Positions 8,837-56,366 of a stretch of DNA of 64,000 nt are shown one piece after another. The notes beneath the pieces are model-generated. The model was not told where the DNA came from, made no database searches, and worked only from the letters and a program-made list of their open reading frames with translations. Both the position numbers and the translations under genes were made by a program. Numbering within the stretch: position 1 is the first letter of the stretch; every line of letters begins with the position of its first letter. The DNA comes from Methanosarcina acetivorans C2A (GTDB lineage: Archaea; Halobacteriota; Methanosarcinia; Methanosarcinales; Methanosarcinaceae): the NCBI RefSeq assembly GCF_000007345.1, contig NC_003552.1, forward strand, positions 1,426,001-1,490,000. Reading direction: 5' to 3'.

Positions 8837-10630
8837 TTAGGCATGAGTACATCTCATCGCATGCCGTGGCCAGATACCTGAAGAAGGTCTATGAAAAGAT
8901 CTGTTAGGCATGGCTTCCTTAAACCGCATACCATAAAACTGCATGTAAAAGTCATCAGCTTCCTCTTTCAGGTCGATTCCAAGTTTTCCGGGATGTAGTT
9001 TGTCTGTTATATATAAAAGGCCCAGTATCCAGCGGGGGTTTCCAAAATCCCATGCAGCCGGAACCGCATAAACCTGCCTTTTTTTTACAGCATCTGCATG
9101 TATTCCATATTTCTGGCACAGCTCATAGAACTCATTAAGGGGCCGCGAAAGGAAACTGGAAATGAAAATGGCTTCCGGATTGTGCTCATTGATAAATGCA
9201 GGAGATACATTCACTCCCGGTTTTCCTTTTTTTTGAAGCTGTTTATTGATACTAATGCCTCCGGAAAGCGTCACCAGGTTGTTTTCCATTCTCTCGGCGT
9301 TCAGGGCAAAGAGGGGAGAGCCCATGCAATAATAAGCTTTTTTACAACCTTCATCTTCTGCTGCAATATTCTGGACAATTTCAAGGCGACTGCGAATGAA
9401 AGAGACAAGCTTTCCTCCTTTTTTAGGTACGTTGGCTTTTTTAGCGACAAGTTCTATGAAATCCAGATAAGAATGTGGTTGCTGTGTCATTTTATGTATG
9501 TGTATAAGGGTTCTGGTATCGGAAACTTCTCTCCAGACATCCATTAATTTATCATCCATCCAGAAATCCACTAACTTATCGTCCCGTATATCCAGGCACG
9601 TAAGCACTGCGTGGACCATACGGAAAGCCTGGACTACTCTGTGACCGTCCATAAAGCCAGTTTCACTGAAACTTTCATTGGCAGTTGTCCCTTTAACCGG
9701 AATGCTGTTGCCACAACCACACTTATAACTCACCTTTACAAACCTGGAACCCATGAATTCCTGGAATTCCCTCTCTATTAACGGGCTGCCACATTCGGAA
9801 CAATAGGTGCCCAATAATTCCGTTCCCGGGGAATTAAAGAGGTAAACATAGTCCACATGCTTACGCAGGGAAGAACACAATTTTTCCGCTTCTCCTATTG
9901 AAGGTTCAAGTTCCATCGGAGCATAGCCGAAAGGAAGAAATCTCATGACCTGCAAGGGAATTGTGGGGGAGATTTCAGCCACTGCTTCTGCAACTTTTAT
10001 CATCTCTTCCTCATTTCCTCTGGAATAAACGATTGAAGTTTCGACGTGTACTCCCATGTCGAAGAGCTTTGAAAGGTTGCGGAAAACCGGGGCTGACGAA
10101 GGAACTCCGCAATTCATGTAGCTCCTGTCAGAGTATCCTTTAATTCCCACGTTCATGAAATCTACAAGCTGTCCAAGCTCTTCTAAAGTCTCTTCTGTGA
10201 AATAACAATTGGTTGAACAGCCTGCAAGCAAACCCTGTTCTTTTGCCTTCACCGCAAGGTTCCTGAAGAGATAATAATTTGCAGCAGGCTCATTCATTGT
10301 GGAAACCACACCAAGGCAATTCTGCTGCAGGGCTTTTTCCACTATTTGAGAGGGTTTGAGGGCCAGCTGGTTAAGGGGTCTGCTTGAAGCCAGCACCCTG
10401 GCCATGCAGCCGGGACATTGGAAATTGCAGCCCGTACTAAAAACCTGAAGGAATTTACCTGAAGGATAATAATGAAGCAAAGGAACTGCTTCTATTGAAA
10501 TTGGATATGCCCCAAGGTATCCCATCCCAGGACACTGGGCAATATTGTCGCCTGTACACACATAAGCTCCACATCTGCCCATGCTACATCCTCCGATTTC
10601 GCACCTGACTTCACATATATTGCATTGCAT
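8837..10630 (-). CDS. Radical SAM enzyme fused to an ABC binding-protein lobe
   Basis: This 597-residue protein has three parts. Residues 1-35 hold a Cys-rich cluster (CNICEVRC, CSMGRCGAYVC). Residues about 60-280 form a radical SAM core of the pyruvate-formate-lyase-activase type, with CNFQCPGC as the [4Fe-4S] motif, followed by zinc-ribbon-like CSEC and CGC pairs near 290-325. The last 200 residues match the C-terminal lobe of the metal-binding ABC proteins in this window: NPEAIFIS, RQVYAVPAAWDFGNPRW, then LHPGKLGIDLKEEADDFYMQ. There is no signal peptide, so this lobe works in the cytoplasm. The gene lies divergent from anfH. A role in metal-cofactor chemistry or metal sensing for nitrogenase is inference. 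Confidence 0.75.
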   Translation of the reverse strand: MQCNICEVRCEIGGCSMGRCGAYVCTGDNIAQCPGMGYLGAYPISIEAVPLLHYYPSGKFLQVFSTGCNFQCPGCMARVLASSRPLNQLALKPSQIVEKALQQNCLGVVSTMNEPAANYYLFRNLAVKAKEQGLLAGCSTNCYFTEETLEELGQLVDFMNVGIKGYSDRSYMNCGVPSSAPVFRNLSKLFDMGVHVETSIVYSRGNEEEMIKVAEAVAEISPTIPLQVMRFLPFGYAPMELEPSIGEAEKLCSSLRKHVDYVYLFNSPGTELLGTYCSECGSPLIEREFQEFMGSRFVKVSYKCGCGNSIPVKGTTANESFSETGFMDGHRVVQAFRMVHAVLTCLDIRDDKLVDFWMDDKLMDVWREVSDTRTLIHIHKMTQQPHSYLDFIELVAKKANVPKKGGKLVSFIRSRLEIVQNIAAEDEGCKKAYYCMGSPLFALNAERMENNLVTLSGGISINKQLQKKGKPGVNVSPAFINEHNPEAIFISSFLSRPLNEFYELCQKYGIHADAVKKRQVYAVPAAWDFGNPRWILGLLYITDKLHPGKLGIDLKEEADDFYMQFYGMRFKEAMPNRSFHRPSSGIWPRHAMRCTHA

Positions 10631-16179: not shown

Positions 16180-17769
<1,590 letters not shown>

Positions 17770-21568: not shown

Positions 21569-23737
<2,169 letters not shown>

Positions 23738-36769: not shown

Positions 36770-37861
36770 TCATGTCGAGCTTGCAGGAGGCAGATGCTGC
36801 AGTATCCTGTTTGCTTCATCATCTGTCAGGTTATAGTGGTAGAATCTCGAGTAGTAATCTTTGACCTCACTGGTCATGTTCAGATCCTCAAACAGTTCCG
36901 GATGTAGAGTTTTGGCAAAATACTCCATAAGCAACACCCCTTCAGCACCATAGTCCCACCAGGCTACTCCCTGTGGGCAGAGATATACCCTGTTATTCTG
37001 CACAGCCTTCAAGTTACTGAACCTGGGGTCATTCGTAAATATATCTGTACTGTTGACATGTCCTACATAGATTACATCAGGATTCCATACAAGCAGCTGC
37101 TCCGGTGTAATTGTTTCAATCCCTTCCATATCTCCGGAAATATATTTGCCGCCAGCCATCTCCACATAAAACTGCGGATAAGAGTTTTTACCCTGATTTG
37201 TCATTGCATCATTGGCATAGTATACCGTGGGACGCTCACTATCTGTAAGGTTTGCAGTTCTCGATGTCACATAATTCGCCTTCCGATCAAAGTATACACC
37301 CCATTCGTCAGCAGTCTTTTTTGCATCCGGGCCCATTACTTCACCATAAAGCGCGATTTCCTGCTTCACATATTTAACGAATGAGTCTACGTTATCAGGA
37401 TTTCCTGAGTTTTTCTGAGTAACCACAACAGGAATATTACTCGAATTTAATTTATCCCTTGTAAAATCCAGGCAAAATACTACCTGTACTTTTTTGCTTA
37501 TGAGATCTTCAACATTAGGATTTTGTTGATTTCCATTCATTGGGATATTTCTCAACTGCGGAGCTACCTTATAGGCCCATGGGAAATCATTGGACACACG
37601 TATTGTCACTGCCATTTTGTCTGTTTGGTTTAGCAAAATTAATTTTTCATATGATTGACCAGCAAGAGCAGCGACATGAGTCACATTTGCTGGTATAGTT
37701 ACAACTCGTCCCTCTTGATCTGTAATCTGAACGTATTTATCAGACTCTATCTCAATACTTTGATCAGATTTTGTGTTACTATGACCTACATGTGCAGCAA
37801 CGGATACTATTGCAAGGACTGCAATAAGTGCAACAACAGCCACTATACCCCTTTTATCCAT
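36770..37861 (-). CDS. Metal/chelate ABC binding protein, tandem copy 1
   Basis: One of three tandem paralogues of the TroA/BtuF type. The N terminus (MDKRGIVAVVALIAVLAIVS) is one hydrophobic stretch without a lipobox Cys, so the protein is membrane-anchored or cleaved. YVQITDQEGRVVTIP and the ending YYSRFYHYNLTDDEANRIL are family marks. WWDYGAEGVLLMEY is shared by all three copies. GGTGTGA precedes the ATG. It sits downstream of the permease and ATPase at 40.3-42.2 kb. Confidence 0.85.
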   Translation of the reverse strand: MDKRGIVAVVALIAVLAIVSVAAHVGHSNTKSDQSIEIESDKYVQITDQEGRVVTIPANVTHVAALAGQSYEKLILLNQTDKMAVTIRVSNDFPWAYKVAPQLRNIPMNGNQQNPNVEDLISKKVQVVFCLDFTRDKLNSSNIPVVVTQKNSGNPDNVDSFVKYVKQEIALYGEVMGPDAKKTADEWGVYFDRKANYVTSRTANLTDSERPTVYYANDAMTNQGKNSYPQFYVEMAGGKYISGDMEGIETITPEQLLVWNPDVIYVGHVNSTDIFTNDPRFSNLKAVQNNRVYLCPQGVAWWDYGAEGVLLMEYFAKTLHPELFEDLNMTSEVKDYYSRFYHYNLTDDEANRILQHLPPASST

Positions 37862-37867
37862 TCAATC

Positions 37868-37978
37868 ACACCTTTAACTCCATTTTAATTTTGTATTGAT
37901 TTTTTTCTTCGACCGATGAAGGTACAATTAATTTTATGCCTTCGTTGCTGTCGATTTCTTCAAAAGCATTAATAACTG
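37868..37978 (-). repeat. Spacer repeated between the tandem binding-protein genes (copy 1)
   Basis: About 110 bases including TTTTCTTCGACCGAT and CCTTCGTTGCTGTCG are almost identical to the spacer at 39060-39168. The repeated unit of gene plus spacer is about 1.19 kb, showing recent tandem duplication. Confidence 0.75.
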
Positions 37979-39054
37979 GCAGGCGGGAGATGCTGCAGTA
38001 TCCTGTTTGCTTCCTCGTCTGTCAGGTTATAATGGTAGAACCTCGAGTAGTAGTCTTTGACCTCACTGGTCATGTTCAGGTCTTCAAATAGCTCAGGATG
38101 CAGGGTCTTGGCAAAATATTCCATGAGTAGTACCCCTTCTGCACCATAATCCCACCAGGCCACTCCCTGCGGACAGAGATATACTCTGTTATTCTGTACA
38201 GCCTCTAAATTAATGAACTTGGAATCGTTCGTAAATATATCCGTACTGTTAACATGACCAACATAGATCACATCAGGATTCCATACGAGTAGCTGCTCCG
38301 GTGTAATTGTTTGAATCCCTTCTGTATCTCCTGAAATATACTTGCCGCCAGCCATCTCCACATAAAACTGCGGATAAGAGTTTTTACCCTGATTTGTCGT
38401 TGCGTCTCTGGCATAGTATACCGTGGGACGCTCACTATCTGTAAGGTTTTCAGTTCTCGATGTCACATAATTCACTTTCTGGTCAAAGTATGCACCCCAT
38501 TCCCCTGCGGTCTCTTTTGAATCCGGCCCCATCACTTCGCCGTAAAGCGCTACCTCCTGCTTCACATATTTTACGAATGAGTCTGCATCATCAGGATTTC
38601 CTGAGTTCTTCTGAGTGACCACAGCAGCTATATTGGTCGATTTCAGTTTCTCTTTCGTACCATCGTATGATCTGCAAAATACTACCTGTACTTTTTTGCT
38701 GATAAGATCTTCAACATTAGGATCGTCTTCCATTGGAATATCCTTCAACTGCGGAGCTATTTTATAGGCCCACGGAAAATCATTTGACACATGCATTGTC
38801 ACTACCATTTTGTCCGTTTGGTTTAGCAATATCAATTTTTCATACGCCTGACCGGAAACAGCAGCCACACGGGTGACATTCTCCGGTACAGTTACGATTC
38901 GTCCTTCCTGGTCTGTAATCTGAACGTATTTATCAGACCCTATCTCACTACCTTGATCAGATTTTGTGTTACTATGACCTACATGTGCAGCAACGGATAC
39001 TATTGCAAGGACTGCAATAAGCGCAACAACAGCCACTATTCCCCTTTTATCCAT
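37969..39054 (-). CDS. Metal/chelate ABC binding protein, tandem copy 2
   Basis: This 361-residue protein is very close to copy 1: the first 35 residues are the same, and they diverge mainly around residues 90-140 (IPMEDDPNVEDL here, IPMNGNQQNPNVEDL in copy 1). That region lines the ligand cleft in this fold, so the copies may bind different forms. GGTGA precedes the ATG. Confidence 0.85.
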   Translation of the reverse strand: MDKRGIVAVVALIAVLAIVSVAAHVGHSNTKSDQGSEIGSDKYVQITDQEGRIVTVPENVTRVAAVSGQAYEKLILLNQTDKMVVTMHVSNDFPWAYKIAPQLKDIPMEDDPNVEDLISKKVQVVFCRSYDGTKEKLKSTNIAAVVTQKNSGNPDDADSFVKYVKQEVALYGEVMGPDSKETAGEWGAYFDQKVNYVTSRTENLTDSERPTVYYARDATTNQGKNSYPQFYVEMAGGKYISGDTEGIQTITPEQLLVWNPDVIYVGHVNSTDIFTNDSKFINLEAVQNNRVYLCPQGVAWWDYGAEGVLLMEYFAKTLHPELFEDLNMTSEVKDYYSRFYHYNLTDEEANRILQHLPPASY

Positions 39055-39059
39055 TCAAT

Positions 39060-39168
39060 CACCTTGAACTCCATTTTAATTTTGTATTGATTTTTTCTTC
39101 GACCGATTAAGGTACAATTAATTTTATGCCTTCGTTGCTGTCGATTTCTTCAAAAGCATTAATAACTG
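39060..39168 (-). repeat. Spacer repeated between the tandem binding-protein genes (copy 2)
   Basis: Near-identical to 37868-37978; together they mark the boundaries of the duplicated unit. Confidence 0.75.
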
Positions 39169-40250
39169 GTAGGCGGTAGATGCTGTAGTATTCTGTTTGC
39201 TTCCTCGTCTGTCAGGTTATAGTGGTAGAATCTCGAGTAGTAATCTTTGACTTCACCGGTCATGTTCAGGTCTTCAAATAGCTCAGGATGCAGGGTTTTG
39301 GCAAAATACTCCATAAGTAACACCCCTTCAGCGCCGTAATCCCAGTAGGCCACTCCCTGCGGACAGAGATACACCCTGTCATCCTGTACGGCTTTTACGT
39401 TACTCAGCCGGGTGTCATTTGTAATTATATCCGTACTGTTAACCCGGCCTACAAAAATTACATCAGGATTCCATGCCAGTAACTGTTCCATTGTGACGCT
39501 TTGAAGTCCTTCTTTATTGGTATTTTTTGCAACGTAGTCGCCACCGGCCATTTCCACATAAAACTGCGTATAAGAGTTTTTACCCTGTGTTGTTATCGCA
39601 TCCGGACCCCTTGCATAATACACTTTGGGACGCTGACTATCTGTAAGGTTTGCAGTTCTCGATGTCACATAATTCACTTTCTGATCAAAGTACGTACCCC
39701 ATTCATCAGCAATTTCCTCCGCATCCGGGCCCATCACTTCGCCGTAAAGCGCTATTTCCTGCTTCACGTACTTAACAAATGAGTCTGCGTTCTCGGGGTT
39801 TCCCGAGTTCTTCTGAGTGATCACAACAGCTATATTGCTCGAATTCAGTTTCTCCTTATTACCGTCGTATGACAAACAAAAAACGACCTGCACTTTTTTG
39901 CTGATAAGATCTTCCACATTGGGATCGTTTTCTATAGGGATATCTTTCAACTGTGGGGCTATCTTATATGACCAGGGCAGATTGGTCCATGCCGATATTG
40001 TCACTGCCATCTTGTCGGTCTGATTTAGCAAAATTAATTTTTCATATGACTGACCGGCAAGAGCAGCCACATGAGTCACATTCGCCGGCACAGTTACAAC
40101 TCTTCCCGTCTGGTCTGTTATCTGAACGCCCTGATCAGCTCTTATCCCGATATTACTATCTAGCTCAGACCTTGTGTTACTGTAACCTACACCTGCAATG
40201 GATAAAATTGCAATAACTGCAATGATAGCCACCATACCCTTTTTATCCAT
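39159..40250 (-). CDS. Metal/chelate ABC binding protein, tandem copy 3
   Basis: This 363-residue protein is the most diverged of the three and nearest to the ATPase, so probably the ancestral copy. It starts MDKKGMVAIIAVIAILSIAG, again without a lipobox, and has VTISAWTNLPWSYKIAP and SVTMEQLLAWNPDVIFVG. The C-terminal 60 residues equal copies 1 and 2 closely, suggesting exchange among them. GGTGA precedes the start. Confidence 0.85.
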   Translation of the reverse strand: MDKKGMVAIIAVIAILSIAGVGYSNTRSELDSNIGIRADQGVQITDQTGRVVTVPANVTHVAALAGQSYEKLILLNQTDKMAVTISAWTNLPWSYKIAPQLKDIPIENDPNVEDLISKKVQVVFCLSYDGNKEKLNSSNIAVVITQKNSGNPENADSFVKYVKQEIALYGEVMGPDAEEIADEWGTYFDQKVNYVTSRTANLTDSQRPKVYYARGPDAITTQGKNSYTQFYVEMAGGDYVAKNTNKEGLQSVTMEQLLAWNPDVIFVGRVNSTDIITNDTRLSNVKAVQDDRVYLCPQGVAYWDYGAEGVLLMEYFAKTLHPELFEDLNMTGEVKDYYSRFYHYNLTDEEANRILQHLPPTSY

Positions 40251-43351: not shown

Positions 43352-44485
43352 TCAGAAATTACGGAATGCTACTACTTTATTCATTTCCAGTCTGACCAGG
43401 CAGAAACCGCCTGCATGCAGCTCCAGGGAATCAACAAATTGTGCAGGTACTTCTGCAATCAGAGTTTTGTTATACCTTACAAGTTTAAGGGTAATTCTTT
43501 TTTTAGGCCCTTTATTTATGATATTGTTCACATGTGCAGAATAAATATTTTCATCCTGATCTTCAGAGCCGGAAACCGGCAAAAGAGTTATGTTTTCCGG
43601 GTAGATCCCCCAGGTAACTTTATCCCCTGCTTTGAAGTTCGGAGATTCTATTTTTATTCTCATGTCTCCACTTCTTAATACTGTACTTTTTGACTCTTTA
43701 TCGTACTCTTCAACATAGGCATCGTCAAAAATATTTGATATCCCAATAAGTTCTGACACCTGAAGGTTTGCAGGCTGATAAAAGATTTCTTCCGGAGTCC
43801 CGAACTGCTGGATCTTTCCTCCATGTAAGATGAGAATCCTGTCAGCCAGCAGGAAAGCTTCCTCAAGGTTGTGTGTGATGAATAACAGAGGTATCTCAAT
43901 CTTTTTTTGCAAATTTTTTATTTTATCGGCAAGTTCGGTCCTTATTTCCATATCCAGTGCGGAAAACGGTTCATCCAGAAGTAAAATCCCCGGTTTGGGG
44001 GCAAGGGCTCTTGCCAGGGCGACTCTCTGTTTCTGTCCACCTGATATCTGTGAAGGGTAGCGGGTTTCCAGCTCCTCAATATGGAGCAGGTTCAGCATTT
44101 CCATGACCCTTACTTCCCTGTCCTCTTTTTCCCATTTTTTGAGGCCGCATTCTATGTTTTTTCTCACGTTCATGTGGGGAAAGAGGGTATAGTTCTGAAA
44201 AACATAGCCAAGATTACGTTTCTGGATTGGCAGGTTAATTTTTTTGTCTTTGTCGTAGTATATTTTACTCCCTACAGTTATCTTTCCGTTATCCGGCTGT
44301 GTGATTCCCGAAATGCATTTAAACAACGTGGTCTTTCCGGACCCTGAAGGCCCGAAAAGCACCACAAGTTCGTTATCCATTTCAAAGCTGACATCTAACG
44401 TAAAAGCTTTTCCAGTGCTTCTTTTCCTATTGATTTCAGCTTCAGTATAATGTTTTTTAATATCAACTTTAACGCCCAATCTCAT
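43352..44485 (-). CDS. modC: Molybdate/tungstate ABC transporter ATPase
   Basis: The ATPase of a ModABC importer. Motifs are GPSGSGKTTLFKCISG (Walker A), QISGGQKQRVALARALAP (signature), ILLLDEPFSALD (Walker B) and FITHNLEEA. The C-terminal 120 residues hold a TOBE-like domain (VTWGIYPENITLLPV, KRITLKLVRYNKTLIAEVP) that can bind oxyanions. Its ATG overlaps the modB stop codon by 4 bases. The N terminus has about 25 residues more than usual before the first strand. Confidence 0.88.
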   Translation of the reverse strand: MRLGVKVDIKKHYTEAEINRKRSTGKAFTLDVSFEMDNELVVLFGPSGSGKTTLFKCISGITQPDNGKITVGSKIYYDKDKKINLPIQKRNLGYVFQNYTLFPHMNVRKNIECGLKKWEKEDREVRVMEMLNLLHIEELETRYPSQISGGQKQRVALARALAPKPGILLLDEPFSALDMEIRTELADKIKNLQKKIEIPLLFITHNLEEAFLLADRILILHGGKIQQFGTPEEIFYQPANLQVSELIGISNIFDDAYVEEYDKESKSTVLRSGDMRIKIESPNFKAGDKVTWGIYPENITLLPVSGSEDQDENIYSAHVNNIINKGPKKRITLKLVRYNKTLIAEVPAQFVDSLELHAGGFCLVRLEMNKVVAFRNF

Positions 44486-45159
44486 ACCTCTAATTTTCCT
44501 GCGAATCTTCCGGTCAATGCAATGGTCAGCAGGGACATAAAGACCAGGATTAAGACCAGCACCTGGGCAAGTTCGTTATTTCCCGCCTGAAAGGCGCTAT
44601 ATATCGAGATCGACATTGTGTTCGTTTTTCCCGGGATATTTCCTGCCAGCATAAGAGTTGCTCCGAATTCTCCCATAGCCCTGGCAAAACTGAGTATCAG
44701 CCCTGCCAGTATTCCTTTTTTTGCAATTGGTAGGGTTATTTGCAGAGCGGTCTCAAGTTCACTTTTTCCAAGGATATAGGCAGCATATTCTATTTCCCTA
44801 TCCACTGCTTCAATGGCTGCTTTTGCGGTATATACCATCAGGGGAAGGGAAACCGTATATGCCGCAATAACTGCTGCCTGCCAGGTGAACATGATCCCTG
44901 TCCCCAGAAAATTGAGAATCATCTGCCCTAAAAATCCATTTCTTCCCACCAGGACAACAAGAAGGTAACCAATTACGGTAGGGGGAAGGACAAGGGGAAG
45001 AGTTAGTAGTAGTTCCGCAAGTCCTTTCCCCCTGAAATCCCGCCTTGCAAACACATAAGCTATGGCTACGCCACTGGATAGTACGAAAAAAGACGATATA
45101 GCTGCTATCCAGAGCGTGAGTGATAAAGGAAACCAGATATTGTCCAGCATAGGTATCAT
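44482..45159 (-). CDS. modB: Molybdate ABC transporter permease
   Basis: A 225-residue inner-membrane protein of the ModB type with several hydrophobic helices. The EAA-loop motif is SFARAMGEFGATLMLAGNIP, and LPLVLPPTVIGYLLVVLVGR is the other conserved family block. It is coupled to modC by overlap. The gap of 128 bases before it, on the side of modA, holds a tandem repeat. Confidence 0.92.
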   Translation of the reverse strand: MIPMLDNIWFPLSLTLWIAAISSFFVLSSGVAIAYVFARRDFRGKGLAELLLTLPLVLPPTVIGYLLVVLVGRNGFLGQMILNFLGTGIMFTWQAAVIAAYTVSLPLMVYTAKAAIEAVDREIEYAAYILGKSELETALQITLPIAKKGILAGLILSFARAMGEFGATLMLAGNIPGKTNTMSISIYSAFQAGNNELAQVLVLILVFMSLLTIALTGRFAGKLEV

Positions 45160-45287: not shown

Positions 45288-46118
45288 TCATTCTGATTCG
45301 GGAGTGAACCCGTATTCCTCAAGTATTTCCTGGCCTTCCTGTCCTGTTACGAAATCGATGAATTCCTGTGCTTCTTCTTTGTTTTCAGACGCCGAAACCA
45401 CAGCTATGGGGTAGCTAATAGGGGTAGTTACAGGCACTGTTGCAACGATTTCGATGGTTTCGGGCTCTGCGGTCTTTGCGTCGGTCATGTACACAAAACC
45501 TGCATCAACCTCTCCTCTTTCAACATATACAAGGACCTGTTTTACATCTTCGGCAAGTACTGTCTTTCCTTCCAGCTGGTCCCAGATGCCTGCTTCGGTC
45601 AGAGACTGGGTTGTATATTTGCCTACAGGAGCTGTTTCGGGATTTCCGATTGCGATCCTCTCAACTTCGAGGGAGGTCAGGTCTTCTATTCCGCTTATGT
45701 TGAGGGTACTGCTTGATGGAACTATGAGCACGAGGGAGTTCTGGGCGAAGTCTTCCCTTGAGCTGTTCTCAATTAACCCCTCTCCGGCAAGTATGTCCAT
45801 GTGGCTCTGGGAAGCCGAAGCAAAAACATCAACCGGAGCTCCTCCCTCTATTTGCGTACGCAGGCTTCCGGACCCTGCAAAGTTGAAATTAACGTCTACG
45901 CCAGGGTTTTCGGTTTCAAACTGGGATTCCATATCCGTAAAGACTTCGGTTAGGCTGGCAGCTGCAGAAACTAAAATAGTTTCGGACTCCTGCCCGGGTA
46001 CCGCTGTTTCTGCTGTGGGGGTGCCCGTTTCGTTTACAGCTTCGCTTCCGTTTTCAGCACATCCTATTGCAAGGAATACACCTAATAACACTAACAGAAC
46101 GATCAGTTCTTTCCTCAT
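45288..46118 (-). CDS. modA: Molybdate/tungstate-binding lipoprotein
   Basis: A binding protein of the ModA family, 276 residues, with a lipoprotein signal (MRKELIVLLVLLGVFLAIGC). The mature part starts ILVSAAASLTEVFTDMESQF, the typical ModA opening with Ser ligands, followed by FNFAGSGSLRTQIEGGAPVD, FVYMTDAKTA and a C-terminal helix. It is the first gene of modABC. The 485 bases before it hold AT-rich sequence but no element A or B, so it is probably not in that regulon. Confidence 0.92.
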   Translation of the reverse strand: MRKELIVLLVLLGVFLAIGCAENGSEAVNETGTPTAETAVPGQESETILVSAAASLTEVFTDMESQFETENPGVDVNFNFAGSGSLRTQIEGGAPVDVFASASQSHMDILAGEGLIENSSREDFAQNSLVLIVPSSSTLNISGIEDLTSLEVERIAIGNPETAPVGKYTTQSLTEAGIWDQLEGKTVLAEDVKQVLVYVERGEVDAGFVYMTDAKTAEPETIEIVATVPVTTPISYPIAVVSASENKEEAQEFIDFVTGQEGQEILEEYGFTPESE

Positions 46119-46604: not shown

Positions 46605-46814
46605 TCAGTCTGTTGCTATCATCACACTTGAGGCCTTGAATGCTGCGTATACTTCGCTTCCTTCCTTCAACTTCATATTTTCAGCTGAGGTCTTCGTAAT
46701 GATGGAAGTGACTTCTGTTCCACTTGGCAATTCTACTACAATTTCCGCATTGACCATCCCGATGACGATACTTTTTACCTTCCCCTTAAAGACATTGCGT
46801 GCGCTCAGTTTCAT
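46605..46814 (-). CDS. mop: Molybdopterin/molybdate-binding Mop protein 1
   Basis: A 69-residue single Mop (TOBE) domain: KLSARNVFKGKVKSIVIGMV, then VELPSGTEVTSIITKTSAE and VYAAFKASSVMIATD. Molbindins of this size form hexamers that store molybdate or tungstate in the cytoplasm. A GGAGG-type site precedes the ATG. A near-identical second gene lies 290 bases upstream. Confidence 0.88.
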   Translation of the reverse strand: MKLSARNVFKGKVKSIVIGMVNAEIVVELPSGTEVTSIITKTSAENMKLKEGSEVYAAFKASSVMIATD

Positions 46815-47104: not shown

Positions 47105-47314
47105 TTAATCTGTGCCTATCATCACATTTGAGGCCTTGAGTGCTGCGCATACTTCGCTTCCTACTTTCAAATTCATACTCTCAGCTGATGTTTTTGTGAT
47201 GATGGAAGTGATTTCCGTTCCCTCTGGCAATTCGATTACAATTTCAGTATTAACCATTCCGGTGACAATGCTTTTAACCTTGCCTTTCAAAACGTTACGT
47301 GCACTCAGTTTCAT
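47105..47314 (-). CDS. mop: Molybdate-binding Mop protein 2
   Basis: A 69-residue paralogue of the previous gene (MKLSARNVLKGKVKSIVTGM, then VCAALKASNVMIGTD). The frame is open to 47359, but ATG 47314 has GGAGG 7 bases ahead and gives the family size. It has Cys at VCAALK where the other copy has Tyr. The two genes look like a tandem duplication. Confidence 0.88.
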   Translation of the reverse strand: MKLSARNVLKGKVKSIVTGMVNTEIVIELPEGTEITSIITKTSAESMNLKVGSEVCAALKASNVMIGTD

Positions 47315-47605
47315 TTTTAATCCTCCATTCAATACGGAAGGCGATTTCCGCCATCTCACATATAAAGTTTCTTTTATATATAATTTGCGAACTTTAGATC
47401 AGCTTCTGTCCTCATGATTTATATCCGGGAATGAGGTAGATTTTCTACTCAAATACGTTAAGAGTCGATATGTTTATATCTAATCGTAAATTTACTTCCG
47501 AATGTAAATTCTTTATGCTGTTTATATATAACTTGAGATAAAACAGTTTACTGATGACGAACCTGGATATGGGAATCGTTAACTGGTAAATGACAGCAAA
47601 GAAAC

Positions 47606-47824
47606 TTGAACACGGTTTTTTTCTATTGGGACCCGGAAAGCCCTGGGCTTTCTTTGATTCCCCCACCCGTCTTCCTGACTGCAGGGAACAGGCGTATTCC
47701 TATACCTGTTGACATTGGAGTACTAGTTCATAAAAATGAAACAGTGCTGTGCAATTGCTGTGCTCTGTTCTTTCAGCATGAAAATGAACTGCTGTACAGC
47801 TCACGGAACAATGTTGAGAGGTAA
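47606..47824 (+). CDS. Short ORF before the fmdB paralogue, doubtful
   Basis: This 72-residue frame starts at TTG and has a CNCC pair (ETVLCNCCALFFQHENELLY). It ends 5 bases before the next small ORF. No family is recognised and no clear ribosome-binding site is seen. It may be a remnant. The 47315-47605 stretch shows no gene. Confidence 0.25.
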   Translation: MNTVFFYWDPESPGLSLIPPPVFLTAGNRRIPIPVDIGVLVHKNETVLCNCCALFFQHENELLYSSRNNVER

Positions 47825-47829
47825 GCAAA

Positions 47830-47913
47830 ATGCAAGATGATAAGCTATTATCCGATTTTCCTGGAATGAGCTCTGAATCGACGGCTTTGGATATTAATGT
47901 CGGAGGCTGGTGA
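47830..47913 (+). CDS. 27-residue small ORF overlapping the fmdB paralogue's start region
   Basis: ATG 47830 has AGAGGT 8 bases ahead. The peptide starts MQDDKLLSDFPGMSSES and ends in a GGW, and its stop lies 2 bases before ATG 47916. It could couple translation to the next gene. No homologue is recognised. Confidence 0.35.
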   Translation: MQDDKLLSDFPGMSSESTALDINVGGW

Positions 47914-47915
47914 TT

Positions 47916-49241
47916 ATGTTTTTCAAAAACATAATTTGTCCTGCCTGTGGGGCTGCCTGCGACGATATTCAGGTTGAATTCAAGAACGGAGCAATTGAAG
48001 CCAAAAATATATGCAAAGTTGGGAATGCCAGGTTCAAGGCGCTTACCAGTTCCCGGAGACTCAAACAGCCCCTTATAAAGTTTGAGGGAAAATTAAAGTC
48101 TGTTTCCTGGGACGAAGCCCTCGAAAAAGCTGCTGATATCCTTGTTTCGGCAAAACGTCCTCTGCTTTTTATGGGAAGTGATATTTCCTGTGAAACGCAT
48201 GAAATCGGGCTTCGAATCGGAGAATATCTGGGTGCGGTTGTGGATTCCAATACTACTCTGGGGAACGGGCCAGCAGCCATGGGCCTTCAGGAGTCAGGGA
48301 AAACAGCTGCAACAGAAGGACAAAAGAAAAACAGAGGCGACCTTGTAGTCTACTGGGGAACCAATCCTCTCGAATCCATGCCCAGGCAGATGTCCAGGTA
48401 CGGAGTTTTCCCGAGAGGTTACTGGACCGGACGCGGGCGTTTTGACCGGACAGTTATAACGGTGGATCCAAGAAAAACTCTCACTTCCGAGGCTTCCGAC
48501 CTGCACGTGCAGCTCAAACCTAACTCCGATTACGAACTGATAAGTGGCCTGCTGACCCTGCTCCACGGAAAAACTCCTCATCCCTCAATAGAAGAAGTCA
48601 CAGGAATTCCCATCTTCTTGATGGAACGGATGCTCTATATGATGAAAAACTGTAACTTCGGTTCAATCTCAGTAGGAGTTGGGCTTTCTTCTTCAATCGG
48701 GAAGCACAGAAACGTCGAAATTGCCATGAACCTCGTAAAGGAACTGAACAATTATACCAAGTTTACCCTTGGAGTTCTCCGCAGTCACTGCAATGCTGCA
48801 GGCTTTAACCAGATCGCATCCGGCATGTACGGCTATCCCTTCGGGCTTGACTTCATGAAGGGGTATCCCCGTTACAACCCCGGGGAGTTCACCACTGCGG
48901 ATTTGTTGCGGGAAAGGGATGTGGACGCTGTCTTTGTGATAGGCACCGATCTTTTAAACGAGGTCCCTGCGGATTGTGCAGCTTACCTTTCAGAAATTCC
49001 CCTGATCTGCCTGGACATTGTTCCATGTCCTACCATAATTGTCTCGGATGTCGTGCTTCCGGCTGTTATTGATGCAATGGAATGCGATGGAACCTTCTAC
49101 AGGCTCGATGACGTGGCTGTTCACTTCGAGCCCTTCATGGATTCTTCCTTTGAGTTCACAAAGAGTAATGAAGACACCTTAAAGCAGCTTTTTGTGAAGA
49201 TCAAAGAAAAATGTAACTATAAGCCTGTCAAAATCAGTTAA
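47916..49241 (+). CDS. Formylmethanofuran dehydrogenase subunit B paralogue lacking the metal-ligand Cys
   Basis: FmdB/FwdB is the Mo/W-pterin subunit that reduces CO2 to formylmethanofuran. The N-terminal cluster motif CPACGAACDD (Cys 8, 11, 15) and Cys33 are kept, as are KNRGDLVVYWGTNPLESMPR and TVITVDPRKTLTSEASDLHV. But where FwdB has the metal-binding Cys (or Sec) in a PxCTLGExKNR context, this protein reads SGKTAATEGQKKNRGD, with no Cys. The 441 residues are normal in length. GGAGG stands 9 bases before ATG 47916; GTG 47910 is also in frame. It stands alone, without subunits A, C or D, next to Mop genes. Confidence 0.8.
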   Translation: MFFKNIICPACGAACDDIQVEFKNGAIEAKNICKVGNARFKALTSSRRLKQPLIKFEGKLKSVSWDEALEKAADILVSAKRPLLFMGSDISCETHEIGLRIGEYLGAVVDSNTTLGNGPAAMGLQESGKTAATEGQKKNRGDLVVYWGTNPLESMPRQMSRYGVFPRGYWTGRGRFDRTVITVDPRKTLTSEASDLHVQLKPNSDYELISGLLTLLHGKTPHPSIEEVTGIPIFLMERMLYMMKNCNFGSISVGVGLSSSIGKHRNVEIAMNLVKELNNYTKFTLGVLRSHCNAAGFNQIASGMYGYPFGLDFMKGYPRYNPGEFTTADLLRERDVDAVFVIGTDLLNEVPADCAAYLSEIPLICLDIVPCPTIIVSDVVLPAVIDAMECDGTFYRLDDVAVHFEPFMDSSFEFTKSNEDTLKQLFVKIKEKCNYKPVKIS

Positions 49242-49411: not shown

Positions 49412-50947
49412 TCAGATATTCAACCTTCTAAAAGCTCCTGGTGCTCTTATCAGATCATGTCTTCCAACTTTAAAAGCTGTAAGTGCCGTAAGTAATGCGG
49501 CAATATTGCTTATCGATACATAGATTTTAGCCCATTCACTTCCTCTGGTTGGTGTTTTTGATCTATTGTATCCAACAACATCGTTTGAATTTTTCCTTTC
49601 AACAGTGGTTCTTATATTGTACAATTTTCCAAGCAATTTATGATAAATTCTTGGGACGTATTGAGCTCTGAAGTGGTTCCCCTTTTCTGTTTTCAAGATA
49701 TTTCCAACACTATTCGCTCTTGCAGCTATGACTGGAATAACCCCTTTCTCAATTACTGTTTCATTGGAAAGATGACTATCAGGTCCTGCATCAGCGATCA
49801 CAAAAAACGGTTTTTCTGTTGCTGATTTCATACATTGGTTTATTGTATCCTGAAATATGGTGTTGTCATTTTTACTAGCGTTTACTGCATCCCAATAAAC
49901 AGGTAAACCCCACCAGCTATCAACAATACATGTATCAGTGTATCCTGTTCCTGATAATACACTAAATTTACCTGTTTTCTTGACATAATGTCCAGCATCT
50001 GGATCGGAAAGCTGTCCAGTCTCTTTATTTTTCAAACCACTGCAATTACACTCAAAAAATCTTCGATCCCAAATCCAGATTTTGTCACCAATAAGGTTAA
50101 GATTTCTACATTCTTGGATTAGTAATTCTGCATATGTGTCCAGATAAGGATAAATCATTTTTAGGTTTCGTCGATAAGAAGAAAGAGTAATCTTTTCTCC
50201 GCTTTTGATTTTTAATTCATTCCTTAGAGCTTGGTTCTGGTTGTAATCTCTGATAAATGATTCAAGATTAGAATATCCAAGTTTGCATCTTGATAACTCT
50301 AGCTTGAAAATATTATTGAAAGATAGTTCTTCAAGTTGAGGTTTATACCCCATTGATACCTGAATGTCATTAAAATAAGAACCAAGCGAAGGGTTTAATT
50401 CAAAAATGTTCCTCAAATATCCTCTAAATTTTTTAAGATTTTGAAAAGCGAGTATTTGACTCAGAGGAAGAACATTCTCCATATAGTCCTTACTCTTCAC
50501 AATTAAAGGTTTAACCTTGTAAGGGACATTAATTTTCCGTTTGAGGACATTTATTATGTCCTCAAAGAAATCAGACAGTACTCTTTGATACGTAGATATG
50601 ACACAATGTCTACTGTTTTCTGCTTTTTTCTTATTCTTTTTATCACTCTTCAGGAACATAATTTTAAATTTTGAATTTTTAAAAAGAAAATGGTCCTTGA
50701 AAGTGGTGATACATATCGTTTTTTCAAAAAAATTACCTATAAAGCTTGCAAGCGTTGACTGGTTAACGTGAACGGTAAGAATTCTTGAATTGTCCTTTTT
50801 GTCTTCGAATTTTCTTCCAAATATCTTTTCATATTTTTTCCTGCCTTCAACACTCTTCAAGCTTACAACTATTGTTTTTGTAATCTCTAAAAAGTCACTC
50901 AACTGAAGCAAAAAATACTTATATCCCTTACCAACAATTTTTATCAT
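49412..50947 (-). CDS. DDE transposase (IS4-like superfamily)
   Basis: A 511-residue transposase that seems intact. Its catalytic DDE residues are probably in KIWIWDRRFFE (first Asp), FFVIADAGPDSH (second Asp) and RTTVERKNSNDVVGYNRSKT (Glu). The codon and base use is AT-rich. Clear terminal inverted repeats could not be fixed by eye; an imperfect inverted repeat lies just upstream of the start at 50946-51018. It separates the molybdenum genes from the defence-type gene. Confidence 0.8.
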   Translation of the reverse strand: MIKIVGKGYKYFLLQLSDFLEITKTIVVSLKSVEGRKKYEKIFGRKFEDKKDNSRILTVHVNQSTLASFIGNFFEKTICITTFKDHFLFKNSKFKIMFLKSDKKNKKKAENSRHCVISTYQRVLSDFFEDIINVLKRKINVPYKVKPLIVKSKDYMENVLPLSQILAFQNLKKFRGYLRNIFELNPSLGSYFNDIQVSMGYKPQLEELSFNNIFKLELSRCKLGYSNLESFIRDYNQNQALRNELKIKSGEKITLSSYRRNLKMIYPYLDTYAELLIQECRNLNLIGDKIWIWDRRFFECNCSGLKNKETGQLSDPDAGHYVKKTGKFSVLSGTGYTDTCIVDSWWGLPVYWDAVNASKNDNTIFQDTINQCMKSATEKPFFVIADAGPDSHLSNETVIEKGVIPVIAARANSVGNILKTEKGNHFRAQYVPRIYHKLLGKLYNIRTTVERKNSNDVVGYNRSKTPTRGSEWAKIYVSISNIAALLTALTAFKVGRHDLIRAPGAFRRLNI

Positions 50948-51761: not shown

Positions 51762-54700
51762 ATGGTACTCCATATGTCAGATTCCATAAGAGGTTTAGCC
51801 AGTAACATGGTTTCAAGAAAAAAAGAGGGTATTGATCCATATATCTTATTTCTCGGAGCTGGAGCATCCATAAGTTCTGGGTGCTCAAGTATGATGCAAA
51901 TTGTTGATGATGTCTTGAAACATCACGCTACTAAATCAGATCTTGATAAATGGAAAAGTGAAGTTGAAAATGCTACTCAAAAGGATCCGAAATTTGGAGA
52001 TCTTGTTAGAAATGAACAAAATAAAATAAAGCGTACTCGTTTTTTTGAGATATGGAGAACATTAGACCACGATACTCAGCAATCAATCCTTAAACAACAT
52101 CTGTGGGATAGAAAGCCCTCAGAAGGATACGACATTATAGTTAAGCTAATAAAAAAAGGTTTTATTAGAAAAATTCTTTCAACAAATTTGGATAATTTGC
52201 TAGAAAAAGCCTTGCACAAGGCAAATATGTGCTATTCAGATGATTTTGTAGTTCTTGTCAATGGAAAAGATCGACCAGAGGTAATAGCCAAACAACTTAA
52301 TTCTTCCTCTAATTTTTTGGAAATTATTAAATTACATGGTAGTTTAGAGTTCTCAGCAAGCTACGCCTTTACCCCAGAAGAAACATCTTTTTTTGAAAAT
52401 CAAATCGAGTCTGAGATTTATAAATTCATCAACCAAAGTCTCATAATTGTAGGATCTAGCATGCAAGATCAAGATATCCATGCACTTTTTAAAGAGAAAG
52501 GAAAGGAAATTTATTTCGTAAATTCCGCAACTCCAGAGGCAGAAAGTGAAAGTTCTCGGATTTTGTCACTTCGCGGTAAAGGGAAAGTAATAGATGGAAA
52601 AGATGGACATTTTGACGAATTTTTTAGGAAATTATTAACGTGCATGGAGTATGAAGAAAATAATGTTTCATCTCCTTTCAATGAAAGTGGAGTTAACGTT
52701 TCAGGAATTGAAGCCCCAGGACTTGGAAATATAGTGGCTCATAAGCTCTCCAGAGAGCCTTATACTACTGAGATTTTCACCTGTTCTTCTATGAATACGA
52801 AATATAAAGTAGTAGAGCTTTATGAATCTAAAGAAAACTATTCCATTGTTCCCGATTATTTGCCCAGAAAAGTGTGCAAAGTGAAGAACTTCAGTCCCAG
52901 CATTGCTTTGTTTTCAAGCGAAAATAATTATGAAAATATTTGCCAAGCAATTAATGAAAACAAACACATTGTACTTCTTTGCGACGCTGGAGTAGGGAAA
53001 ACGACCGAGCTAAAGCAACTTGATTATCAATGTTCGAGGCTTCACTCCTACTGTCCAATTTTCATTCCTCTCAATTTATACACAAATAAGAGAATTAAGG
53101 AGTATTTCCCTAAGAACTGGGAGTTAATACCAGAAAAAGAGCTTCTTGTTTTGCTTGATGGATTTGATGAAATTGAAAGTAAAAATATTAATGATGCAAT
53201 TCGCGAAATTGAATTTTTTGTAAGAGAGTGTCCCGACGCGCATATTGTAGTTTCTTGCAGAACTAATTTTTACAAAATAGAAACTGAAGAAGATGAAGGT
53301 CTGTTAAATGGATTTACTTCTTATATACTTCTTGACCTTGAAAACAAAGAAATTAAAAAATATGCCAAAGATAAGCTGGATTTTAAATCAACTTATTTTT
53401 TTGATTCAATCTACGAGAAAGATCTTTACCCTTTACTAAAATCCCCTTTTTATTTAAAATATTTGGTTGAAATGTATATAATAAATAATAATCTTTCCAA
53501 AAGTAAAGTCGAGATATTCAAAAATTTATTAAAATCAAGAATTAAACTTGACATTAAACATTATCGCACAACAAAAGAGCTGGAGAATGAGACGAAAAAC
53601 TTGATGAAAAACCTAGAACACGTTGCCTTGGCAATGGAATGTCTAGGAAGAAACTATATTGATAATGAAGAATTAGAAGAGATATTACCAGAAAGATCTT
53701 CAAGAGAATTATTGAAATACTGCACAACATGGGTTAAGCAAGAAATTGATCAAGTAACTTGGCAGTTTGAGCATAATAATTTTCAGGAATATTTAGCAGC
53801 CAAAAAACTAGCAAATTATCCTATTGAAGTGATTAAGGAATTTGTATCTTCTGAAAATGAACATGAAAAAATTGCTCTGTCTTGGGTAAATACACTTTCT
53901 TTCCTTGTTAGTATCTATGGTACTGACGATCTACAAAAATGGATTTTATCCGTGCAACCTGAACTTTTTGTAAAGTTTGAGTATAATACAATCAGTAGAA
54001 AAGAGAGAATTAGAATATTCAAAGAAATATTCGAAAGCTATGAAGAAAAAGAAATATGGATACCATTAGGTAAGTTCCGAATTGATGAACTTGCGAGATT
54101 CGGGCAATCTGATGAGATAGTTGATTATTTGCTAAACAAAATCGAGAAAGGTGCACATTTCACTACAATAGGAACGGCAATCGAATTATTGTGCGAAATA
54201 AAAGATATACCGACAGAATATAAAGAGAGGGCAAAAGATATTTTAATAGCACGTGCTTTGGAAACAAGTTATAATGGAATTGTGCAAAATTATGCCCTTG
54301 AGTGCTTGTCGGTTCACAAATTTGATTCAAAAGAAATCATTGACCAAATTGTGCCATCACTGAGAAGATCAAAAGATGATAACATTAGATCAGGATTGTA
54401 TCGTCTCTTATGTAACAGTGATTATCTTAATGATTACATAGATATTTTTTTAGAGGGAGTTGATTGTGCATATTCCCGAAAAATTTTTTCTTTTTCAGAA
54501 TTTACATATCTAATGGAAGGTTTTAATAAAGCTAATTCTCCCAAATCAATCCGAAAAATAGTAGAATTCTTTAGGAAAGAACCTGAAAATTTAGAGAATA
54601 TTTATTTTAACCGAGAAATTGGTTTTTTGGACAATGCTGCCCAAGTATACATGAAAGATCCTTCAATTTTAGAATCCTGTTTAGAACTATTCAAAGTATT

Positions 54701-56366
54701 ATTAATAGGACATGAAAAACAAGCTCAAAACTTTTTGAGATTTTTTGATAATACCAATTCAAGACTTCAGGTTTTTCAAAAGATTTATTCGGAACGGAAT
54801 GTTGAGAAATACGCAATTTTAAACCTTGGAACTTTAGCTGATATGGACTGTATTGAATTTTATGTTAAAGAATATGAGGAGGGAAGAATTACAGATTCCG
54901 AAATATGGAAACTACAAAATTCGCTTGCATTTGAAAATAAGCAGTTATGTACTCAATTTAACAAACTGATTGTCGATAAGTTTGGAGATAAGTTTGCTTT
55001 GCCTCCAAATATAGATTATGAGAAAGTAAGGATAGAAGGAGTTCAGAGGGACGTTGAGTTAATTTTTAACAAAGAGCTATTCCTCGAAGAAATTGTTAGG
55101 ATCTTCAAAATAAGCAAGAAAGAAAAACTTACACGCTTGGAACTATCTCATGTAGGATTAGAAAATTTTGAAGACAATGTCTCTAAGTTAATAATTCATT
55201 TATTATACAAAATTGCTGGTGATAAAACAGTTTCTCTCGAAGAAGCTATTGAATATATTAATGGTTTAAACTGGGATTCTTTTGTCATAGGAAAAGTTTA
55301 CGAGATGTCAATAAGAGATGAGGACATTAGTCTTACACTGGAACAAAAACGATATGTATCTGAGTGGTGTCTTTCACATGTTCATGATGTTGATTTTAGA
55401 AAAGTAATTTCTAAAAAAGATAACAGAATAATTACTGATCGAAAAGCTATACTTCTGTGGTATTTTTTAAGAAAATTTGGCCTTTTCTATCCAGTAAATG
55501 TTCTATTAGATTTAATTTCTTTTGACAGTTCTGATTTAGGAACCGAATTTGTTGGAATAGAATATCTGGAAAGACGATTGCCTCTCCAAGAAATGAAAAA
55601 AAGAATTTTAGAAAATTTGAATGAGGGAATCGAATATGACTTCATTTTGGAAAACCACATTATTTTCTGCAAAAACCACAGAATAAAACAAATACTACAA
55701 TTTACTCCTGATATCATAACTGATGTAAATCGAGCCTATAGTGTACGAAAAATAGCACTGGACATTACTATTGAAATGTCAGAAGATCTAGATGAATTAG
55801 AGGTTATATTAACAAAAATAAATGATGCCTTTAAATGGGTAGTTCTTAAAACACTTATTGATAATAATAAGAATTGCGAAGTTTTTCTTTTGAATACTTA
55901 TAATGAAGGAAACGAAAACGATAAATTAGAGGCTTCTATTTATTTAATGAAATCCCAAAACATAAAGGGAATCGAACTTCTTATTGAATGGATAAAAGAA
56001 AATGAAAAATATCCTTGGTTTATCGGTGAATCTCCTCTACGATCCCTCTCTGATTCTATTTTTGTTCCAGGTCTATTAAACCTACTCAAAATAAGTTATC
56101 AAGAAAATATTTCCCAAGATAGTTTCCACAGTTTACATAATGACGTTTTGGAAGCTTTATCAAGAATAGCAATGAACTCTGAACGAAATCTCTCCGAAAT
56201 TAAAAGTTGCATTGAGAATTTTATAACTGAGAATTCGTCAAATATAAAGAATATTAATTTCTTGTATTCTTACTTGGAAAACTTAGAACTCAATTTTAGT
56301 GAGACAAGAAATAAGGATATAAATTATGTAATAGCTAAGTTTCAAGATCTGAATATCACTATATAA
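51762..56366 (+). CDS. Giant SIR2-NACHT (STAND) protein, probable antiviral defence
   Basis: 1534 residues in three parts. The N-terminal SIR2 domain has the NAD-binding GAGAS (32-36), the STNLDNLLEKAL motif near 140 and LHGSL with the likely catalytic His near 190. A NACHT ATPase follows: DAGVGKTTEL (Walker A near 408) and LLVLLDGFDEIES (Walker B near 460). The remaining 800 residues look like helical repeats, the likely sensor. This order is that of SIR2-effector STAND defence proteins, which sense a phage protein and destroy NAD+; that activity is inferred. Low GC and the neighbouring transposase suggest acquisition by transfer. ATG 51774 is an alternative start. Confidence 0.82.
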   Translation: MVLHMSDSIRGLASNMVSRKKEGIDPYILFLGAGASISSGCSSMMQIVDDVLKHHATKSDLDKWKSEVENATQKDPKFGDLVRNEQNKIKRTRFFEIWRTLDHDTQQSILKQHLWDRKPSEGYDIIVKLIKKGFIRKILSTNLDNLLEKALHKANMCYSDDFVVLVNGKDRPEVIAKQLNSSSNFLEIIKLHGSLEFSASYAFTPEETSFFENQIESEIYKFINQSLIIVGSSMQDQDIHALFKEKGKEIYFVNSATPEAESESSRILSLRGKGKVIDGKDGHFDEFFRKLLTCMEYEENNVSSPFNESGVNVSGIEAPGLGNIVAHKLSREPYTTEIFTCSSMNTKYKVVELYESKENYSIVPDYLPRKVCKVKNFSPSIALFSSENNYENICQAINENKHIVLLCDAGVGKTTELKQLDYQCSRLHSYCPIFIPLNLYTNKRIKEYFPKNWELIPEKELLVLLDGFDEIESKNINDAIREIEFFVRECPDAHIVVSCRTNFYKIETEEDEGLLNGFTSYILLDLENKEIKKYAKDKLDFKSTYFFDSIYEKDLYPLLKSPFYLKYLVEMYIINNNLSKSKVEIFKNLLKSRIKLDIKHYRTTKELENETKNLMKNLEHVALAMECLGRNYIDNEELEEILPERSSRELLKYCTTWVKQEIDQVTWQFEHNNFQEYLAAKKLANYPIEVIKEFVSSENEHEKIALSWVNTLSFLVSIYGTDDLQKWILSVQPELFVKFEYNTISRKERIRIFKEIFESYEEKEIWIPLGKFRIDELARFGQSDEIVDYLLNKIEKGAHFTTIGTAIELLCEIKDIPTEYKERAKDILIARALETSYNGIVQNYALECLSVHKFDSKEIIDQIVPSLRRSKDDNIRSGLYRLLCNSDYLNDYIDIFLEGVDCAYSRKIFSFSEFTYLMEGFNKANSPKSIRKIVEFFRKEPENLENIYFNREIGFLDNAAQVYMKDPSILESCLELFKVLLIGHEKQAQNFLRFFDNTNSRLQVFQKIYSERNVEKYAILNLGTLADMDCIEFYVKEYEEGRITDSEIWKLQNSLAFENKQLCTQFNKLIVDKFGDKFALPPNIDYEKVRIEGVQRDVELIFNKELFLEEIVRIFKISKKEKLTRLELSHVGLENFEDNVSKLIIHLLYKIAGDKTVSLEEAIEYINGLNWDSFVIGKVYEMSIRDEDISLTLEQKRYVSEWCLSHVHDVDFRKVISKKDNRIITDRKAILLWYFLRKFGLFYPVNVLLDLISFDSSDLGTEFVGIEYLERRLPLQEMKKRILENLNEGIEYDFILENHIIFCKNHRIKQILQFTPDIITDVNRAYSVRKIALDITIEMSEDLDELEVILTKINDAFKWVVLKTLIDNNKNCEVFLLNTYNEGNENDKLEASIYLMKSQNIKGIELLIEWIKENEKYPWFIGESPLRSLSDSIFVPGLLNLLKISYQENISQDSFHSLHNDVLEALSRIAMNSERNLSEIKSCIENFITENSSNIKNINFLYSYLENLELNFSETRNKDINYVIAKFQDLNITI

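Follow-up and report, generated by a model that had tools for sequence, protein, structure and literature searches.

A stand-alone fmdB gene beside molybdate uptake genes

The window analyzed here is a stretch of 64,000 nucleotides of the Methanosarcina acetivorans C2A chromosome, which is a single contig of 5,751,492 bases. On its forward strand lies fmdB3, an open reading frame of 441 codons plus a stop, whose product scored 603.8 bits in a profile search against the FmdB/FwdB equivalog model TIGR03129 (cutoff, 327.8 bits). fmdB3 is a genuine gene; a sequencing error or a lone pseudogene was rejected because 13 intact copies are present in 30 genomes, with another in UBA293. As the sequence-only reading had described, two Mop-type genes and modABC adjoin fmdB3, and inspection of the locus in the window revealed no FmdA, FmdC, FmdD, or FmdF gene beside it (Table 1). 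The region between the divergent mop and fmdB3 genes contains a conserved near-palindromic motif, CGATATGTTTATATCTAATCG, a putative promoter or operator that could possibly serve both genes as a shared Mo-dependent operator.

Table 1. Features of the fmdB3 locus in window coordinates
Feature	Position	Strand	Basis
modC-like ATPase	43352-44485	-	modC model, 272 bits, below the cutoff of 285
modB	44482-45159	-	Profile
modA	45288-46118	-	Profile
Second Mop-type protein	46605-46814	-	Profile, neighborhood
Mop-type molybdopterin/oxyanion-binding protein, divergent from fmdB3	47105-47359	-	Profile, neighborhood
CGATATGTTTATATCTAATCG, conserved near-palindromic motif with TATA-like core (putative promoter/operator)	47466-47486	.	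Sequence
Conserved noncoding leader, predicted structured RNA with 81 consensus pairs, specific to fmdB3 loci	47545-47825	+	Alignment, folding, model search
3' part of leader, a homologue of the fmdE tail with its frame broken here	47665-47830	+	DNA search, alignment
Helix P3, 5' strand, CCTGTTGACATTG (predicted)	47705-47717	+	Consensus structure
Helix P3, 3' strand, with Shine-Dalgarno-like GAGAGG (47816-47821) of the scar ORF (predicted)	47809-47821	+	Consensus structure
Scar ORF, 27 codons: first ~13 codons of fmdF plus last ~15 codons of fmdD	47830-47913	+	Alignment
fmdB3 (441 aa), a stand-alone paralogue of FmdB that lacks the metal-ligand Cys	47916-49241	+	ORF list, profile, alignment, tree
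Codons 116-117, Gly-Asn where FmdB/FwdB have the ligand Cys and gating His	48261-48266	+	Alignment
SGKTAATEGQ, residues 127-136, not the ligand position	48294-48323	+	Alignment

Several other genes of the window were recorded. Farther from fmdB3 are an Fe-only nitrogenase set (AnfD, 16180-17742) and a vanadium nitrogenase set (VnfD, 21960-23402); beside these alternative nitrogenase genes is a gene for a radical SAM protein of 597 aa (8837-10630, minus strand) with a long C-terminal part that has no Pfam match and by eye resembles a metal-complex binding protein. Three tandem Peripla_BP_2-type lipoproteins of 361-363 aa, much alike, are encoded between the nitrogenase genes and modABC (36770-40250, minus strand). 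A transposase gene (49412-50947) adjoins the gene for a 1,534-aa protein (51762-56366, plus strand) with SIR2-like and weak STAND/NACHT matches, like those of defense proteins. Elsewhere in the genome there is a second modABC (C1:2801957-2804780; L076 6958-9779), which has neither mop nor fmdB3 with it and whose modA is 98% identical to that of the window.

Loss of the metal ligand and other active-site residues

In formylmethanofuran dehydrogenases, the metal is ligated by a Cys or selenocysteine of subunit B, the His119 position has been proposed as a gate, and the cofactor is held between subunits B and D; the Methylorubrum extorquens homologue, which is without D, has lost the metallopterin (PMC11656701, section 7). 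The sequence-only reading held that the window protein lacks the ligand Cys and placed the loss in the segment SGKTAATEGQ. A phmmer alignment with five solved chains (9sw6_J, 9sfi_Q, 5t5i_B, 8rja_B, and 7bkb_H) confirmed the loss and relocated it: the ligand motif CHGP (XHGP in 9sfi, where X is taken to be selenocysteine) aligns to GNGP at residues 116-119, with Gly116 in place of the ligand. SGKTAATEGQ lies 11-20 residues beyond this site, and Methanosarcina FmdB proteins that retain the ligand Cys read SGKVGATEGQ in the equivalent segment. Displacement of the ligand Cys to another nearby position was rejected for the window protein, since a scan of its sequence found no Cys anywhere from residue 92 to 246. 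Among the intact copies, a Cys is present at position 131 in three genomes (G024, G023, and G014; position 128 in the truncated G014 row) and is missing in the window copy and in the nine copies that have a 3-residue deletion immediately ahead of the ligand site.

Residues were then compared across the 13 intact copies and a set of 29 FmdB and 3 FwdB sequences. The ligand position is Cys in 32/32 sequences of this comparison set and Gly (11 copies), Val (1 copy), or Asp (1 copy) in the stand-alone proteins; the gating His is replaced by Asn117 in all 13. Going beyond the earlier reading, the loss is thus common to the clade, not peculiar to the window, and extends to this His. Gly290 is likewise Ser in 13/13 copies (an interrupted copy in genome G001 retains Gly), and His349 is Gln in 12 and Glu in the window copy. 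Active-site Arg289 and His291 are retained in 12 and 11 of the 13 copies, respectively, a poor fit to full decay of the pocket. Cys 8, 11, 15, and 33, the iron-sulfur residues that the sequence-only reading had seen, are indeed present in the window protein, the N-terminal [4Fe-4S] motif occurs in every intact copy, and 99 of the 128 invariant columns of the comparison set are unchanged in all 13. An AlphaFold model of the product (pLDDT, 64.9; pTM, 0.62; active-site loops below 50) was too poor for judging the pocket. Given that B and D hold the cofactor between them and that the D-less bacterial homologue has lost it, FmdB3 standing alone probably binds little cofactor or none.

Substitutions at the ligand position were also noted in other gene sets. 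In the genomes bog_70 (G016; locus L048) and fen_51 (G015; locus L049), the fmd operon looks complete (F, A, C, D, B), and its FmdB carries Tyr in place of the ligand Cys, with the active-site Arg replaced by His or Asn. A second FmdB was found in neither of these incomplete genomes (92% and 73%), and both may lack a working Mo-type enzyme. In the fwd2 set of M. acetivorans (L071; C1:3590821-3592044), FwdB2 has Arg at the ligand position; the ligand Cys (SSFCLG or SSYCLG type) is present in 18/21 Methanosarcina FwdB2 proteins, with Arg also in G006 and Ser in G008. Expression of fwdB2 was reported to be constitutive in PMC2838876.

Distribution, phylogeny, and selection

Intact stand-alone copies without the ligand Cys occur in 13 of 30 Methanosarcina genomes (G000, which is that of the window, G002, G003, G004, G012, G013, G014, G020, G023, G024, G025, G027, and G029); UBA293, which carries the fourteenth, is outside this set. 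The copy in G001 is interrupted, that in G006 is a stub of ~85 codons, and no trace of a stand-alone copy was found in 15 of the 30 genomes. M. acetivorans itself has a decayed second fmdB3, 18.5 kb away and beyond the end of the window (L057 6204-6570, corresponding to window positions ~66200-66570); it lies beside EF-1alpha/S10 genes and carries the end of the leader and the scar that are described below. In G024, the intact fmdB3 sits at this EF-1alpha/S10 locus. The interrupted, truncated, and decayed copies indicate that the gene is dispensable in places.

Outside Methanosarcina, genomes with a strong match have one FmdB each, and CHGP is present in all 19 FmdB sequences fetched (of 59) from the other genera of this family, so the loss of the Cys is derived. 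In an IQ-TREE phylogeny, the 13 stand-alone copies form one clade (support, 100/99) near the base of Methanosarcina; the window product is 75-81% identical to Methanosarcina FmdB, and the clade derives from a Cys-bearing FmdB. The dN/dS values of the stand-alone copies were 0.060-0.165, as calculated for the 41 pairs (of 78) whose dS was below 1, compared with 0.020-0.056 for operon-encoded FmdB in 11 pairs of our choosing. These values point to selection that is approximately threefold relaxed relative to FmdB yet clearly purifying.

Origin from a collapsed fmdEFACDB operon

A DNA search of the 30 genomes with window positions 47540-47830 matched 14 fmdB3 loci over most or all of the query length at 81-100% identity. 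From base ~126 onward, the 3' part of the query also matches DNA located ~4.2 kb upstream of many fmdB1 and fmdB2 genes, a site that corresponds to the end of fmdE (PF02663), immediately before fmdF. Between this remnant and fmdB3 is a short scar ORF, the stop of which is 2 bases ahead of the fmdB3 start; the ~38 bases at its beginning correspond to the fmdF start and the ~40 at its end to the fmdD end. The two halves are clearest in G001 (32/38 and 33/41) and UBA293 (30/38 and 37/45), and in some other loci one side alone is convincing. The pooled pN/pS of the scar ORF is 0.45 (12 sequences), and the case for a selected peptide is weak. The succession of an fmdE tail, an fmdF-fmdD scar, and fmdB identifies the locus as a collapsed fmdEFACDB operon, in which the frame of fmdE was broken and the whole fmdF-to-fmdD stretch was lost. 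The genome also carries intact fmd operons.

A conserved, predicted structured leader

Per-column identity among the 14 leaders is 90% from about position 47545 onward. The ratio of leader distance to distance at fmdB3 fourfold sites has a median of 0.24 (range, 0.12-0.59; 78 pairs), with the highest value belonging to the closest-related pair among those listed. A protein-coding leader was rejected, because 1-base indels between genomes break the frames and the conservation is therefore not that of a protein; a wholly new element was also rejected, since the 3' part is the fmdE tail.

When compared to shuffled sequences, the plus strand folded with a z score of -2.93 (2/200 shuffles as good) and the minus strand with a z score of -1.34 (19/200). 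The 81 consensus pairs are formed in 97.1% of cells, compared with 40-51% paired for slid structures, a score that is favored by the consensus having been built from the same leaders. Covariation is modest: both sides changed in 5/81 pairs (12 double-change cells; none of 500 shuffles reached as high), and many pairs, including much of P3, never vary. The leader set excludes the G006 stub, the remnant copy of M. acetivorans, and Y variants, and G014 is missing from the upstream alignment. We consider a comparison with the ancestral fmdE tails to be more independent, with the structure again derived from the leaders and with G014 absent: the tails (n = 28 of 29 rows, with L104 dropped) form 74%, 54%, and 79% of the P3, P3a, and P3b pairs, respectively, and the 13 leaders form 100%, 99%, and 95%. 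By this comparison, the predicted pairing was gained after fmdE stopped being a gene. In the predicted structure, P3 buries GAGAGG, the Shine-Dalgarno-like site of the scar ORF.

A search of Rfam 15 found no family match to the leader, the sole match being a chance one to DdR7 (17.9 bits; gathering score, 80) outside the leader. A covariance model gave 14 strong matches in 111 genomes of the family, each of them an fmdB3 leader. Leader RNA was found away from fmdB3 neither by the DNA search of 30 genomes nor by the model search of 111; the other matches were to fmdE-fmdF junctions, the weak ones being individually inspected in part, to the dead copy in M. acetivorans, and to one 36-base chance sequence. 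The leader is also conserved in loci where mop is lost. The conserved structure expected of a riboswitch is thus predicted for the leader, at the modest level of covariation given above.

Neighborhood of fmdB3 in relatives

Gene order was examined at 14 loci, i.e., the 13 intact copies and that of G001. An adjoining mop gene is whole in 7/14, broken in 2/14, and absent in 4/14, and the G014 locus is at a contig end; mod genes are near fmdB3 in 7/14, including one remnant. An association with molybdenum supply thus recurs among the loci without being strict. Downstream, fdhAB directly follows fmdB3 in two loci (G002 and G004), and a gamma-carbonic-anhydrase-like gene follows it whole in five loci and broken in two. 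Genes like those of the Fe-only nitrogenase of the window abut fmdB3 in two loci (G003 and G027), and AnfG/VnfG is present in 8/30 genomes; an alternative nitrogenase is therefore no requirement.

Relation to known systems

FmdB3 shares the full-length fold family and the four Fe-S Cys residues with FmdB/FwdB (TIGR03129; PDB 9sw6, 9sfi, 5t5i, 8rja, and 7bkb) and differs in the replacement of the ligand Cys by Gly and of the gating His by Asn and in a locus without D or other partners. Judged by its sequence, it is a homologue of FmdB that lacks several of the features tested as defining a working FmdB. The D-less M. extorquens homologue is FhcB of the formyltransferase/hydrolase complex. By its published description, this FmdB homologue also works without D and without metallopterin (PMC11656701, section 7); it is bacterial and belongs to a known complex, whereas FmdB3 is archaeal, recent, and stand-alone and retains its Fe-S Cys residues. 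Like Moco and other cofactor-sensing leaders, the fmdB3 leader is a predicted structured 5' leader near molybdenum genes and could hide a ribosome-binding site; unlike them, it has no Rfam match and derives from a broken coding sequence.

A gene named fmdB3 is listed as present in M. acetivorans and Methanosarcina barkeri and absent from Methanosarcina mazei in Table 1 of Rohlin and Gunsalus 2010 (PMC2838876). It is almost certainly the gene in the window, which is the sole M. acetivorans fmdB outside the fmd1/fmd2 and fwd1/fwd2 sets. The accessible text of PMC2838876 contains no remark on the sequence or expression of fmdB3, the missing ligand, its origin, or the leader. In the open-licence literature, the name fmdB3 occurs in that one paper only, and neither the lost ligand nor the leader was found to be described. 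The locus tags of the region are presumably MA1235-MA1240, for which the same literature held nothing relevant. As far as that literature is accessible, fmdB3 has been listed in print and no more.

Possible functions of FmdB3

The sequence-only reading had suggested that the protein became a binding factor, regulator, or chaperone rather than an enzyme, and the analysis carries this suggestion part of the way. There is good support for the view that fmdB3 has ceased to encode a normal formylmethanofuran dehydrogenase subunit: both the ligand Cys and the gating His are gone, and the locus encodes no D that could complete the pterin site. Purifying selection, together with the conserved leader, supports another, selected role. 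Our preferred explanation, to which we give about an even chance, is that FmdB3 is a noncatalytic descendant of FmdB, subunit B of the Mo-type enzyme, that acts as a binding protein or pseudo-subunit in molybdenum/Fmd homeostasis and is expressed via an exapted RNA leader. Early in Methanosarcina, a copy of fmdEFACDB collapsed at the molybdate uptake locus: the frame of fmdE was lost, a deletion removed the stretch between codon ~13 of fmdF and the fmdD tail, and fmdB was left. The remaining protein, which has no D subunit of its own, lost both the gating His and the Cys that ligates Mo/W and should, for these reasons, neither make nor oxidize formylmethanofuran. Purifying selection has nevertheless maintained it, together with the Fe-S Cys residues and the majority of the other invariant positions, and our best guess for its present role is binding, either of the cofactor or of partner subunits of the active Fmd complex. 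The wreck of fmdE may have been reused as a structured 5' leader, predicted to mask the Shine-Dalgarno sequence of the short coupled ORF, so that P3 would set the amount of FmdB3 through translational control.

In this proposal, FmdB3 could borrow partners from intact operons as a dead pseudo-subunit. Arsenite oxidase holds its metal by pterins without a protein ligand, and FmdB3 might likewise have remained a redox enzyme, in which borrowed FmdD (with FmdA, FmdC, and FmdF) and the pterins alone would retain Mo/W, perhaps for another substrate. The identity of FmdB3 to FmdB makes assembly with FmdB partners plausible, intact operons are present in the same genome, fdhAB directly follows the gene in two others, and retention of the Fe-S Cys residues and, in most copies, of Arg289 and His291 would suit such an enzyme. 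We nevertheless regard a ligand-free metalloenzyme as quite unlikely, given that the ligand and gate were lost together, that Gly290 and His349 were replaced too, that D is absent from the locus, and that the D-less M. extorquens homologue lost its metallopterin (PMC11656701).

FmdB3 could also be a slowly decaying relic, in which the constraint on the protein is left over and the leader RNA is what is selected. A dN/dS about three times that of FmdB, the dead or damaged copies in G001, G006, and M. acetivorans, and a leader that evolves more slowly than fourfold sites of the coding region are all consistent with such decay. A relic would hardly be expected to show dN/dS of 0.06-0.165 over dS of up to 1.0 with 13 frames open, to leave 99/128 invariant columns untouched, or to have identical active-site changes fixed across the clade, and we consider it unlikely. 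Were the leader instead a separate small RNA, e.g., a decoy of the fmdE-fmdF junction that titrates a regulator of the fmd operon, its sense-orientation copies of the end of fmdE and the ribosome-binding site of fmdF would be accounted for, as would its conservation where mop is lost; that it ends at the Shine-Dalgarno sequence of a frame coupled to fmdB3, and accompanies fmdB3 in 14/14 strong model matches, makes this very unlikely.

The preferred explanation, a noncatalytic FmdB descendant under leader control, has a bolder extension that we think improbable: the fmdE wreck would represent a new class of archaeal regulatory RNA that senses Mo/W status or the cofactor and switches translation of a dead FmdB, thereby tuning or poisoning Fmd assembly when Mo is short. 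If the preferred explanation is true, a selected dead subunit beside the molybdate transporter would provide a direct handle on how enzyme is matched to metal supply in Methanosarcina, which carry several formylmethanofuran dehydrogenase gene sets. The locus would also be a clear case of a broken protein gene turning into a noncoding structured element and, since fmdE is intact in the sister operons, it allows a base-by-base comparison of ancestor and derivative.
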